Shown in pieces: positions 36,190-43,378 of a stretch of DNA of 64,000 nucleotides. Source of the stretch: Deltaproteobacteria bacterium (lineage in GTDB: Bacteria > CG2-30-53-67); assembly GCA_013151235.1 (NCBI GenBank), contig JAADIO010000046.1:4455-68454 (forward strand), in the 5' to 3' direction. The stretch's first letter is position 1; every line of letters starts with the position of its first letter. The notes under the pieces were generated by a model. The model searched no databases and had not been told where the DNA came from. It saw only the letters and a list, made by a program, of their open reading frames with translations. Made by a program: the position numbers and the translations under genes.

Positions 36190-37362
36190 ATGGTGAGAAC
36201 CGGCCTTGACGAGATCCGGAGTGGACTTCCCTCCTTCCTGAAAGAAGACCGTATCGGTCTCCTGGCCCACCCGGCCTCGGTGGACTCCCGACTCGTCCAT
36301 GCCCGGGAGATCTGTTCGAAAATCTTTTCAAACCGGCTGACGGTCCTCTTTTCCCCCCAACACGGCATCTTCGGCGAACAACAGGACAACATGGTCGAAT
36401 CCGCACACGGGATCGATCCGGACCTGGGGATCCCGGTTTACAGCCTCTATTCCGAAGTCCGGAAACCGACGCCGGAGATGTTCAGCGAAATCGATACGTT
36501 GGTGGTGGATCTCCAGGATGTGGGGACCCGGGTCTATACCTTCATCTACACACTGGCCAACTGTATGGATGCGGCACGGGAGGCCGGGATCCGGATCGTG
36601 GTCCTTGACCGGCCCAATCCGATCGGCGGAATTGCCGTGGAAGGGAATCTTCTTCGGGAAGATCATTCCTCCTTCGTCGGACGATTCCCCATTCCCATGC
36701 GCCACGGCATGACGATCGGTGAACTGGCCGGGATGTTCAATAACGCCTTCGGGATCGGTTGCGATCTGGAGGTGATTTCCATGCGGGGATGGCGGCGGGG
36801 GATGTATTTTGCAGAGACCGGTCTTCCCTGGGTTTTGCCGTCGCCCAACCTTCCCACACCGGAGACGGCCCTGGTCTATCCCGGTCAGGTTCTTCTGGAG
36901 GGGACCAACCTCTCCGAAGGGCGGGGGACGACCCGTCCTTTTGAACTTTTCGGGGCGCCCTACCTCGATACGAAAAGGGCGGCGGAACGTCTGGCGGCAT
37001 ACGATCTTCCCGGCGTCATTTTCCGGGAGCACCATTTTCTTCCCACCTTCCAGAAGTGGGAGGGAACCCTCTGTCATGGGTTCCAACTCCATGTGACCGA
37101 CCGGAAGGCCTTCCGGCCTTATCGCTCGACCCTGGCCGTTCTCCAGTCGGTTTTATCCTCCTGCCCGGGGAAATTTGAATGGCGGAAGCCCCCTTATGAA
37201 TATGAGACGAAGAAGCTTCCCATTGATATCCTGACAGGCGACCCTGCCGTCCGTGAAGCCCTGGAAGGGAGGATCGATCCCGTGCGGATGGAAAGGGGAT
37301 GGGAAGAGGACCTCTCAGCCTTCCGAAAAGATCGGCGGAAGTATCTCCTCTATCCGGATTGA
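36190..37362 (+). CDS. DUF1343 protein, NamZ-like exo-beta-N-acetylmuramidase
   Basis: DUF1343 family; characterised relatives (NamZ) remove terminal MurNAc from peptidoglycan fragments. The 390-residue product shows the family motifs GLLAHPASVD, LFSPQHGIFGEQQ, VYSLY, DLQDVGTRVYTFIYTL, VLDRPNPIGG, MRHGMTIGELA, NLPTPETALVYPGQVLLEGTNLSEGRGTTRPFE and HFLPTFQKWEG. I see no convincing signal peptide, so it may act in the cytoplasm on recycled muropeptides. The start is uncertain: ATG 36190 has no strong Shine-Dalgarno, and GTG 36160 is in frame. Confidence 0.88.
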   Translation: MVRTGLDEIRSGLPSFLKEDRIGLLAHPASVDSRLVHAREICSKIFSNRLTVLFSPQHGIFGEQQDNMVESAHGIDPDLGIPVYSLYSEVRKPTPEMFSEIDTLVVDLQDVGTRVYTFIYTLANCMDAAREAGIRIVVLDRPNPIGGIAVEGNLLREDHSSFVGRFPIPMRHGMTIGELAGMFNNAFGIGCDLEVISMRGWRRGMYFAETGLPWVLPSPNLPTPETALVYPGQVLLEGTNLSEGRGTTRPFELFGAPYLDTKRAAERLAAYDLPGVIFREHHFLPTFQKWEGTLCHGFQLHVTDRKAFRPYRSTLAVLQSVLSSCPGKFEWRKPPYEYETKKLPIDILTGDPAVREALEGRIDPVRMERGWEEDLSAFRKDRRKYLLYPD

Positions 37363-37417: not shown

Positions 37418-38806
37418 ATGAAAGCATACGATGTCCTGGTGATCGGTTCGGGACCGGCGGGCCAAAAGGGTGCTATCCAGGCGGCGAAGCTGGGAAAGCG
37501 TGTTGCCGTCTTCGAAAAAGAGGCCTTTATCGGAGGAGCGGGTCTGCAGACCGGGACGATCCCGAGCAAGACCCTGCGGGAGACGGCCCTTTATTTGTCC
37601 GGTCTGAAACAGCGGTCCGTCTATGGTTTCCAGTGTATCTTGGGAAAAAACGTCCAGTTCCAGGAGCTGATGCACCGGAAGGAGACGGTTGTTCAGCGTC
37701 AGATGGAGGTCATCATCGACCAGTTTGCCCGGAACAACGTGGAGATTATCTACGGAACAGCCGTCTTTGAGGAGCCTCATATACTCCGGGTGAAAAATCG
37801 TCAGGGGGAAACGGAACGCTTCCGGGGGGAGGTGATCCTTGTTACCGTCGGCTCCCGTCCGAACCGTCCCCCGGAAGTCCCCTTCGATGGTCATTCCGTT
37901 TATGACAGTGACGGCATCCTCAAAATCGATACCATCCCCGATTCCCTGACCATCATCGGCGGCGGTGTCATCGGTTGTGAGTATGCCTCGGTCTTTGCCT
38001 GTCTCGGAACGAGGGTAACGATCGTGGAGAAGAAGGATCGCCTTCTCGGTTTTGCCGATGAGGAGATCGTGAACTCTCTTGTCTACTGGATGCGTCATGC
38101 CGGTATCGCCATGCGTCTTGGCGAGGGGGTGGACCGGATTGATGTTGAACACCCCGGACGGGTCGTGGCGCAACTGGCCGGCGGGAAACAGGTCGTCTCG
38201 GAAAAGCTCCTCTTTACCCTGGGCCGGAACGCCAACACCAAGGGGCTCGGACTGGAGGAGGTGGGAGTGAAACTCGGCAAGCGGGGACGGATCGAGGTCG
38301 ATTCGGATTACCGGACGAATATTTCCGGGATCTTTGCCGCAGGCGACGTGATCGGCGGACCCAGCCTGGCCTCCACTTCCATGGAGCAGGGACGGCAGGC
38401 CATGTGCGCCGCCCTGATGCAGGAGTGTCCGGTCACCGGAGTGGCGAACCAACTTCCCTACGGGATCTACACGATTCCCGAGATCTCCATGTTCGGCGAG
38501 ACCGAAGCCGGCCTGACGGAACAGGGTATTCCCTATGAAATCGGTCAGGCCTTTTTCAGTGAGGTCGCCCGGGGGCAGATCATCGGCGACAGTTACGGGA
38601 TGCTCAAACTCCTTTTCCATCGGGAGACGCGGAAACTTTTAGGTATCCATATCATTGGGGAACGGGCCACGGAGATCATCCATATCGGTCAGGCCGTGAT
38701 GAGCAACGAGGGGACCATTGATTATTTCGTTAATACGGTTTTTAATTATCCAACCCTCTCCGACGCCTACAAGGTGGCGGCATTGAACGGGATCAACCGG
38801 CTGTAA
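37418..38806 (+). CDS. sthA: SthA-like soluble pyridine nucleotide transhydrogenase (flavoprotein)
   Basis: Flavoprotein of the pyridine nucleotide-disulfide oxidoreductase fold; relatives of SthA move hydride between NADPH and NAD. The 462-residue product has FAD motif [15 protein letters not shown] motif [26 protein letters not shown], and a C-terminal dimerisation domain. The active-site loop reads [14 protein letters not shown], so both positions of the CxxxxC redox pair are non-cysteine (SthA usually keeps the first). A dithiol mechanism is therefore excluded, in keeping with a transhydrogenase. GGAGG (37409-37413) precedes the ATG. It follows the DUF1343 gene by 55 nt. Confidence 0.85.
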
Positions 38807-38883
38807 AGAATGGCTTAACCCGTTCAGGCCGTTTCAACCGAAAAGCCCATGTGAATTTGAGGCGGCACATGAAAGGAAAGAAC

Positions 38884-39828
38884 ATGCCGGATAAAAAAGG
38901 AGAAACCGTAGAGCGGCAAGGTGTAACCCTCCATCTGAGCCGTCCCGTGGAAGAGTCTGTCCGCTGGATCGGCCAGAAAGAGATTTTGCAGCAGCTTCTG
39001 GCCTGCTGGCTGGTGGTTGACGAAAAGGATCTTCCCCTCTCCCCCCGGATCACCGGTTTCCCGGGGATCGGCAAAACCACCCTCGCCATGGCGGCTGCCG
39101 CCCTGCGGGAGCAGCCGTTATTCGTTTACCAGTGTACCAGCGATACCCGGCCCGAGGATCTTCTCGTAACGCCGGTCCTTTCTGAAGCGGGGAGGATCAC
39201 CTACCATGCCTCCCCCCTGGTCAGTGCCATGCTGACGGGTGGGATCTGTGTTCTCGACGAAGGCAACCGGATGAACGAGAAGAGCTGGGCCTCGCTCGCC
39301 TCTCTCCTTGATTATCGTCGAACGGTGGAATCGATCGTGGCGGGGATTACCCTCTCCGCCGATCCGGCCTTTCGATGCTGTGTCACGATGAACGAGGACG
39401 AGTCGACATTTGAAATCCCCGACTATATCCTCTCTCGGCTCCATCCGACCCTGGCCCTCGGGTTCCCGGAGAAGGAGGAAGAGATGGCGATTCTCCGGTA
39501 TCATCTTCCGTTTGCCGATCAGGAGATCCTCGCCATGACTGTTGATTTTCTTCATCGCTCTCACGACCTGAATCTCGATTTTTCCCCTCGCGACGGGATC
39601 CAGATCGTGCGTTATGCCATTAAACGGCTGAGCCAGGATCCCGATCACCCCCTTTCTCGGGATCGTTTCTGGCGGGAGTCCGTCGAAAAGGTTCTGGGTG
39701 AGGACGCCCTGAATATGGAAAAACTGGCGGAACGGAAAAAAGCCGCCTTTGGAGATGAACCCTCCGCCTTCGGCCTGGGGGACTTCTTCTTCGGTGAAGG
39801 GGATCCCCTGAATCCGGACAGGGATTAG
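38884..39828 (+). CDS. AAA+ ATPase (MoxR/AAA_5 type)
   Basis: A 314-residue AAA+ protein: Walker [10 protein letters not shown] (58-66), Walker B ICVLDE (121-126), sensor 1 in CCVTMNED (Asn170), an arginine in YILSRLHP, and a C-terminal helical lid. The arrangement, including the [31 protein letters not shown] segment, resembles MoxR/AAA_5 ATPases that remodel partner proteins. GGAAAG precedes the ATG. The next gene begins 3 nt after its stop. No VWA-domain partner, usual for MoxR operons, is present nearby. Its substrate is unknown. Confidence 0.85.
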
Positions 39829-39831
39829 AAA

Positions 39832-41658
39832 ATGTTTCGTCTCAGCCCCTCCCTGACCCTCCTGCCCGTCATTCATGAGAGTGGGGACTACGCTCTTACG
39901 GTTCGTGAGATGATTCTTGACGGCGATTACGACTGTCTGGCCGTGGCCCTTCCTCCTTCCTTCGCAGAGGGGGTCCTCCGGGGGATTGATCACTTGCCGG
40001 AGATCTCGGTCGTTGTACAAAGGGAACCGGGCGCGCAGGGTTCCATGAACTATGTTCCCATTGACCCCTGTCAGGGGATGATCATGGGGATCCGGATTGC
40101 CATGCAGGAGCGTATTCCCTGTGAGTTTATCGACCGGGAACTCGACCTCTACGAAGTTTATGAGGGCGCTTTTCCCGACCCCTACGCATTGAAAAGGGTT
40201 CCCCCCGGTCGATTCCTTGCAGCCCTTCTCCCGGCGATTGAACGACCGGCACCGGAGAGCCGGCGGACGCAGCGGATTGCCGCCATGGCCTATCGGCTCC
40301 ATCTTTTAGAGGAGCACTATCATCATGTTCTTTTCCTCTGCTCCGTTCTCGACTGGCCCTGGATCCGGGAAGCCTGGCGGGAGGGAAGGCCCTTCTCTCC
40401 GGATGAGCCGGTTCTCCCCGATGCCCGGCTTCATCGGGTCTCCGCGCGCACCCTCTTTTTCATGTTGGGCGAACTCCCCTATATCACCTACCTCTACGAA
40501 AAGAGCCGGAAAACCCTCACCTCCGATGCCAACCTCTCCATCGACGGCGTCAAGGAACTGCTCTTAGAGACGCGGCGGCGATGGGAGAGCCGATACGATC
40601 TGCAGGAGCACCATCTCAATCCTCAGGTCTTGAACCTCTACATGAAATATGTCCGGAACCTGACCCTCATGGAGCGCCGTTTTACGCCCGATCTTTATAC
40701 CCTTGCCGTGGCGGCGAAACAGATCGGGGGGGACAGCTTCGCCGTCTCTCTTGTGGAGACGTCCCGGGATTACCCCTATCAGTCTCAGGACGAGGAAGGA
40801 TACGACGTCATCCGTTTCGGGATGGAGGAGGGGGAGATGGCCGATGGCGAAGTGGTGACCCTGAAAAACAGACTGGCCGGGGAACCGAAAACCTGGCGGA
40901 CGCTTCCTCTGAAACCACAGCCGGAGGTACGAAAGCGGACGATCTGGAAACAACGCTGGAATCCCTTCGGACAGTGTTCCTGGACCCCTGAGGACAACCG
41001 GATCGAAAGCTTCAATCTCCATGTCCGGGAACAGTCGAAGGCTCTCATCGGAGAAGATCTGGCCCGGACGGAGAAGTTCGTCACCTCCGTCAAGGACGGG
41101 ATCGATATCCGGGAGACCTTGCGCCACTGGTATGCGCAGGAGATCTATGTCAAGGAGATCCCCCCCTCCCGGGGGCACATCGAGGTGGTGGTCCTGCTTT
41201 TTGAGAAGGAGGCCGATTCCGATCGTTACGCCTGGCGGCAGACCTGGTACGCCGAGCATCATGAGGAGTCGACCCTCTGTTTCTATGCCACCCCTTACCT
41301 GGGCAACCTCATCGGTCCCGGAATCGGTCAGTCAACCTATGGCGGTTGTTTCCTCCTCTTCCCTCCCCGGCCGATCCCCAACGTCTGGGAGGATTCCCGC
41401 TTCGACTTTGCCCGGACGCTGGAAGAGCGTCTGGTCGCTGGCGCACTTTTTCACTCCTCGCAGAAACTGATCACACTCGTCTCCCCCGGACCGCCTTCGG
41501 TTCGGATGCGCCGGATCGCCCGGCAGTACCGAAAAAAGATTCTTCACATCCCGCTGAGCCGTTTTTCCCTCCAGACCCTCCAGCGGCTGCGGCGGTTTCA
41601 TGTCTTGAACGGGAAGCATGTCCGGAGCTTTGCGTCGCAGTTTATAAGGGATTTTTGA
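39832..41658 (+). CDS. Unknown 608-residue protein paired with the AAA+ ATPase
   Basis: I do not recognise this family. It has no signal peptide or membrane helix. An N-terminal region (about 1-150: LTVREMILDGDYDCLAVALP, MGIRIAMQERIPCEFIDREL) resembles in layout the TraB/ChaN-like fold, as seen in DUF5682 proteins that also sit beside MoxR-type ATPases. The middle (about 150-300) is helical and contains HLLEEHYHHVLFL and FFMLGELPYITYLYEKS. The C-terminal part (about 370-608) has mixed beta/alpha sequence with many tryptophans. The 3-nt spacing to the ATPase strongly suggests one functional unit. The DUF5682 resemblance is my inference and weak. Confidence 0.6.
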   Translation: MFRLSPSLTLLPVIHESGDYALTVREMILDGDYDCLAVALPPSFAEGVLRGIDHLPEISVVVQREPGAQGSMNYVPIDPCQGMIMGIRIAMQERIPCEFIDRELDLYEVYEGAFPDPYALKRVPPGRFLAALLPAIERPAPESRRTQRIAAMAYRLHLLEEHYHHVLFLCSVLDWPWIREAWREGRPFSPDEPVLPDARLHRVSARTLFFMLGELPYITYLYEKSRKTLTSDANLSIDGVKELLLETRRRWESRYDLQEHHLNPQVLNLYMKYVRNLTLMERRFTPDLYTLAVAAKQIGGDSFAVSLVETSRDYPYQSQDEEGYDVIRFGMEEGEMADGEVVTLKNRLAGEPKTWRTLPLKPQPEVRKRTIWKQRWNPFGQCSWTPEDNRIESFNLHVREQSKALIGEDLARTEKFVTSVKDGIDIRETLRHWYAQEIYVKEIPPSRGHIEVVVLLFEKEADSDRYAWRQTWYAEHHEESTLCFYATPYLGNLIGPGIGQSTYGGCFLLFPPRPIPNVWEDSRFDFARTLEERLVAGALFHSSQKLITLVSPGPPSVRMRRIARQYRKKILHIPLSRFSLQTLQRLRRFHVLNGKHVRSFASQFIRDF

Positions 41659-42988: not shown

Positions 42989-43378
42989 GTGCTGTACGCA
43001 TTTGCCGGCGTTTTGGTTTTTATTCTTTTTTCCTTACTTTTTGTGCGGGGGAGTCTGTTCCTCTCTTCTCTGTTGCGGCCGAAGAGACCTACGGAGCAAA
43101 AGGAGATGATCTATGAATGCGGCGAGGATCCCGTCGGGGGCGGCTGGGTGCAGTACAACGTCCGCTTCTACATCATTGCGGTGATTTTTATCATTTTCGA
43201 CGTGGAGGTGATCTTCATCTATCCCGTCGCGATGGTTTTCCGGGAGATGATCGGGAGAGGAACGGGGCCTTACGTCCTGGGGGAACTCATCGTCTTCGTT
43301 CTGATCCTTCTGGCGGGGCTGGTCTATGTCTGGAAGAAGGACGATCTGAGCTGGGTGAAGACGATCCGCGAAGAGTAA
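42989..43378 (+). CDS. nuoA: NADH-quinone oxidoreductase subunit A
   Basis: Membrane subunit near the quinone site of complex I. The 129-residue protein has three membrane helices and the family loop YECGEDPVGGGWVQYNVRFYIIAVIFIIFDVEVIFIYP. The start is GTG 42989 behind GAGGTG. It opens the nuo operon 187 nt from the divergent LysR gene. Confidence 0.95.
   Translation: MLYAFAGVLVFILFSLLFVRGSLFLSSLLRPKRPTEQKEMIYECGEDPVGGGWVQYNVRFYIIAVIFIIFDVEVIFIYPVAMVFREMIGRGTGPYVLGELIVFVLILLAGLVYVWKKDDLSWVKTIREE

Follow-up and report, generated by a model that had tools for sequence, protein, structure and literature searches.

Two adjacent genes in a deltaproteobacterial genome, one for an ATPase and one for a large protein of an undescribed family, raise the question of whether they form a system of their own. 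AAA+ ATPases of the MoxR clade typically act via a dedicated VWA partner, remodelling their targets or inserting metals (PMC13036017, PMC9976466, PMC7159879), and a VWA co-chaperone nearly always accompanies them (PMC7159879). The locus studied here lies in a DNA stretch of 64,000 nucleotides (the window), and it has no VWA or SWIM gene. The original prediction, made from the DNA letters of the window, had stressed this absence and proposed the pair as a possible distinct two-gene machine.

The gene pair and its ATPase

The ATPase ORF comes first, the partner ORF follows on the same strand, and the spacing of 3 nt that had been given for them was confirmed from the ORF coordinates (Table 1). 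An alternative upstream GTG at 38851 would lengthen the ATPase to 325 aa. Both are real genes, and their orthologues are full-length, 43-74% identical for the partner and about 63-81% for the ATPase, nearly always adjacent and in unchanged order.

Table 1. Coordinates of the gene pair, its domains, and the preceding gene (positions in the window).
Feature	Position	Strand	Remark
SthA-type NAD(P)+ transhydrogenase gene, 5' of the pair	37421..38806	+	
AAA_5 (MoxR-clade) ATPase, 314 aa, all catalytic motifs intact	38884..39828	+	ATG start
ATPase C-terminal tail, conserved, DFFF-type motif then acidic residues	39772..39825	+	possible docking element
Partner, 608 aa, undescribed family	39832..41658	+	ATG start
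Partner TIKI-fold domain, residues 1-187, homologous to YehM/DUF5682 N-terminus	39832..40392	+	
Partner helical middle region, residues 188-312	40393..40767	+	AlphaFold2 model
Partner C-terminal alpha/beta domain (residues 410-608), where conservation in the family is highest	41059..41655	+	

Judged by its sequence, the ATPase belongs to AAA_5 and to the MoxR clade of AAA+ proteins, as had been predicted. This clade is defined by a helix-2 insert. The protein scores 68.2 bits against Pfam AAA_5 (cut-off 22), no NCBIfam subfamily model fits it, and among solved structures Midasin, NorQ, and CbbQ come closest to it in sequence. The Walker A, Walker B, sensor 1, arginine-finger, and sensor 2 residues are all intact in the window ATPase, and K64, D125, E126, N170, R185, and R236 are invariant in 83/83 ATPases. 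The C-terminal tail is also widely kept among the orthologues.

The TIKI-fold domain of the partner and its catalytic residues

The partner had been described as unassignable, and over its whole length it is: profile, PDB, and structure comparisons gave no clear match to a known family. Searches of Pfam, NCBIfam, and PADLOC gave nothing at E<=1, and no PDB sequence matched it significantly. The PDB sequence matches to DdrC, an ankyrin design, and thrombospondin were set aside as weak and near chance level, as were the near-chance RNase T2 Pfam matches in the partner family. The DUF5682 threshold of Pfam is reached neither by the window partner, which matches 0 families, nor by any of 62 relatives (best E 0.081), and no Pfam match to a VWA domain was found in the window partner or among 62 family members.

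The N-terminal likeness to DUF5682, which had been called loose, proved real. Residues 8-187 align with the N-terminus of YehM (DUF5682, PF18934) at an hhalign probability of 95.4% and a profile-profile E of 1.7e-8, and residues 7-105 are related to a Nitrospinota TraB protein (profile comparison, E 3e-6). In the AlphaFold2 model of the partner (pLDDT 88.6, pTM 0.73), this domain matches HopBA1, a TIKI protein (PMC6254334), with a Z of 6.8 that by itself is merely suggestive (rmsd 3.7, 139 residues). The TIKI fold is accepted because this fold match comes together with the sequence links to YehM and TraB, which makes residues 1-187 a TIKI-fold homologue of the N-terminal domain of YehM/DUF5682. 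The best structural matches of the same residues are Tetrahymena complex IV subunit chains with Z 9.5-10.4 (PDB 8b6h chain DQ, 7w5z chain E), and this mitochondrial subunit may itself be a TIKI-fold protein.

No similarity to YehM was detected beyond residue 187. Homology past the N-terminal domain had seemed possible by eye, but hhalign gave no support, with a probability of 0.2% for residues 188-608 against the rest of YehM. The approximately 420 residues that follow the TIKI domain have no confident match to anything.

The catalytic set of TIKI proteins consists of two His and two Glu residues (PMC6254334). In the window partner, H15 is kept, whereas position 39, that of a catalytic Glu, is Ala, and position 174, that of the second His, is Asp; the original prediction held nothing on this loss. 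The 75 window-type proteins agree: His15 is kept in 72, the catalytic Glu is present in none (position 39 is Ala, Pro, Cys, Gly, or Ser), and position 174 is Asp in 73. In contrast, a sister group of 14 divergent planctomycete proteins keeps H-E-H, with the Glu in 14/14 and the second His in 13/14, and the partner found in Neochlamydia also retains the Glu and the second His. Since the window-type partners form one branch of the partner tree, a single loss of the catalytic residues would be the simplest reading. TIKI catalysis has presumably been lost in the window type, and Asp174 could still bind metal. The two subfamilies, with and without the catalytic residues, provide a natural active-site comparison. 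The TIKI superfamily at large (TraB/PrgY, ChaN, erythromycin esterase, RRSP, HopBA1) shares the N-terminal domain, by sequence in the case of the TraB protein and by fold in that of HopBA1, whereas the window type breaks the 2His/2Glu set and has its long further portion after the domain.

Co-inheritance of the pair and its neighbouring genes

Within the family of the window genome, the partner occurs in 4/5 other genomes, and the ATPase precedes it in all 3 whose contigs extend upstream. A public-genome scan, restricted to one genome per species, found 103 partner relatives, mainly in Nitrospinota and Planctomycetota. The 80 relatives kept come from Nitrospinota, Planctomycetota, Nitrospirae-labelled MAGs, and one Gemmatimonadetes MAG, and flank ORFs were called mechanically. 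The ATPase lies directly upstream in 62/80 loci (<=305 nt, mostly <100). Seven of the remaining loci are cut by a contig end, two have the ATPase 1.4 or 7.8 kb away, and nine, all labelled Planctomycetota, lack it in the flank despite room; eight of these nine genomes carry an ATPase orthologue elsewhere, 64-68% identical. One MAG has the partner in two pieces that lie in overlapping frames (L059:9986-11858), owing to a frameshift or an assembly error.

Co-occurrence of the two genes, which the original prediction had taken as decisive for its proposal, is strong. Both genes are present in 32 of 199 Planctomycetota genomes, the ATPase only in 2, the partner only in 0, and neither in 165 (Fisher 5.6e-35, a statistic that ignores phylogeny). 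According to the coordinates, the two genes lie next to each other, within about 1.5 kb, in 21 of the 32 genomes. In the other 11 they are unlinked, in some cases megabases apart on one complete single-contig chromosome, and therefore linkage does not explain the co-retention. Over 80 pairs, the distances between partners correlate with those between ATPases at an r of 0.94, a value inflated by shared ancestry. There is little doubt that the ATPase and the partner are functionally coupled. The ATPase orthologues found with no detected partner belong to the planctomycete genomes G307 and G453 (L154:3866-4888, L155:3888-4904).

In Nitrospinota, the partner was found in 56/77 genomes and in 26/31 high-quality ones, and the pair is near-universal and syntenic there. 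The partner tree clusters largely by phylum, suggesting that inheritance has been mostly vertical. Plasmid pS13 of Neochlamydia sp. S13 carries a divergent pair with 5 nt between the genes (L156:4093-6806), where it is annotated only as an AAA family ATPase and a hypothetical protein. Nearby on the plasmid are a recombinase and also a group II intron.

When the neighbours at the 80 loci were clustered, no third gene was conserved across phyla, and neither a VWA nor a SWIM neighbour was conserved. In the source genome, SWIM gave no match, and a search for VWA_CoxE, the VWA family covered, gave a single protein, encoded on another contig next to its own MoxR gene. The usual co-chaperone is thus not obviously available. 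The SthA-type gene precedes the pair in 4/4 loci of the window's clade, and because it is kept in that clade only, it is probably outside the core system; a promoter-like site with 11/12 matches at 37359 accompanies it. A TerB-domain gene directly 3' of the partner, on the same strand, was seen in only 5 planctomycete loci (L058:6473-6847, L060:11975-12319, L077:12060-12425, L081, L089; PF05099 in the two tested). In the window, a nuo (complex I) cluster starts at 42989, about 1.3 kb downstream of the pair and behind an opposite-strand LysR gene. RavA-ViaA binds Nuo (PMC3893208); the proximity was not seen in the clade members L010-L012, and a nuo link as a general feature was dropped.

Proposed mechanism and relation to known systems

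NorQ-NorD, CbbQ-CbbO, and RavA-ViaA likewise consist of a small AAA_5 ATPase and one large co-encoded partner. The window partner differs from theirs in having a TIKI fold and no match to VWA. The best explanation, with a probability of about one half, is that the two proteins work together as a dedicated AAA+ remodelling machine of two components, the obligate partner of the ATPase being a TIKI protein of the pseudo-hydrolase type. The ATPase would most likely assemble into a ring of the MoxR-clade kind and hydrolyse ATP, and the partner would fill the place that the VWA co-chaperone has in the three systems above. A partner role is proposed for this TIKI-derived protein because it is strictly co-inherited with the ATPase. 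Its TIKI domain, descended from a YehM/TraB-like hydrolase, is missing both the catalytic Glu and the second His in the window subfamily and would therefore most likely serve in binding. On the side of the ATPase, docking might plausibly fall to the conserved FFF-acidic tail. The ATPase could instead act with an unlinked protein. As a tentative extension, with a probability of roughly one in four, a decayed TIKI hydrolase would have replaced the VWA co-chaperone, and the unmatched C-terminal domain would have a new fold that acts as an enzyme or handles clients. What is understood of the MoxR clade comes mainly from its VWA partners, and a pair cut down to an ATPase and a TIKI-type protein isolates a minimal unit.

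The near-invariant C-terminal domain of the partner probably carries an essential contact or activity. Residues 410-608 are dense in invariant residues common to both subfamilies, among them the polar residues D422, R427, R431, E475, E479, S480, and Y503, and the domain evolves very slowly. In the order of its strands and helices it bears a weak resemblance to RNase H-like folds, with weak Foldseek and VIA matches. Folded alone, the domain reached a VIA Z of 3.9 at most and a Foldseek E of 0.05 at best, with no confident match, and an RNase H-like domain is not claimed. These features bear on a rival explanation in which the partner is the enzyme: the C-terminal domain would catalyse, the ATPase would activate, load, or reset it, and the TIKI remnant would be regulatory or bind substrate. 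The invariant polar residues are probably more numerous than a pure scaffold usually needs, and they favour this explanation together with the strand-helix order. However, it has neither a confident fold match nor a recognised active-site signature among known ones to build on, and is rather unlikely. If the domain is an enzyme, the word adaptor might understate the role of the partner.

The remodelling machine also has to be weighed against a reduced system of the YehL-YehM type, for which genes elsewhere in the genome would still supply VWA and/or SWIM proteins. Escherichia coli yehL-yehM has the same order, an AAA_5 ATPase gene directly followed by the gene of a TIKI-domain protein, and the N-terminal domains are homologous. 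The near-constant company of a VWA co-chaperone in the MoxR clade (PMC7159879) also points this way. On the other hand, the ATPase has no significant BLASTP similarity to YehL, the only VWA_CoxE gene of the genome is paired with its own MoxR gene, the genome gave no SWIM match, and the 80 loci have no conserved VWA neighbour, all of which make the reduced system unlikely. Moreover, E. coli YehL-YehM is accompanied by YehP (VWA) and YehQ (SWIM). Because the window pair has no counterparts of these, its partner stays below the DUF5682 threshold, and its ATPase has no significant similarity to YehL, the pair is a variant set apart from the yehL-yehM type and not a member of it; the loss of the TIKI Glu and second His is a further difference from YehM. 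The proposal of a distinct system stands as far as a co-inherited two-gene unit is concerned, whereas the gene order of yehL-yehM and the TIKI domain place it not wholly outside known kinds. The literature searched held no functional description of DUF5682 or yehL/yehM and no paper describing the pair; most subscription journals were outside this search, and novelty is not thereby proven.

The patchy occurrence in Planctomycetota (32/199), the Neochlamydia plasmid copy near a recombinase, and the presence of MoxR-type ATPases in ternary conflict systems (PMC7159879) would suit a system of conflict or defence directed at phages or competitors. This reading is very improbable and was rejected, as there is no PADLOC, phage, or viral-contig match, the pair is near-universal and syntenic in Nitrospinota, the tree mostly follows phyla, and the C-terminal domain changes very slowly. 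The vWA-MoxR ternary systems themselves (VMAP, iSTAND, FtsH, beta-propeller; PMC7159879) also join a MoxR-clade ATPase to dedicated partners, whereas the window locus has no VWA or named third component. The partner is found in most Nitrospinota genomes, and cultured Planctomycetota have it as well, Tautonia sociabilis among them, so that its role is open to experiment.
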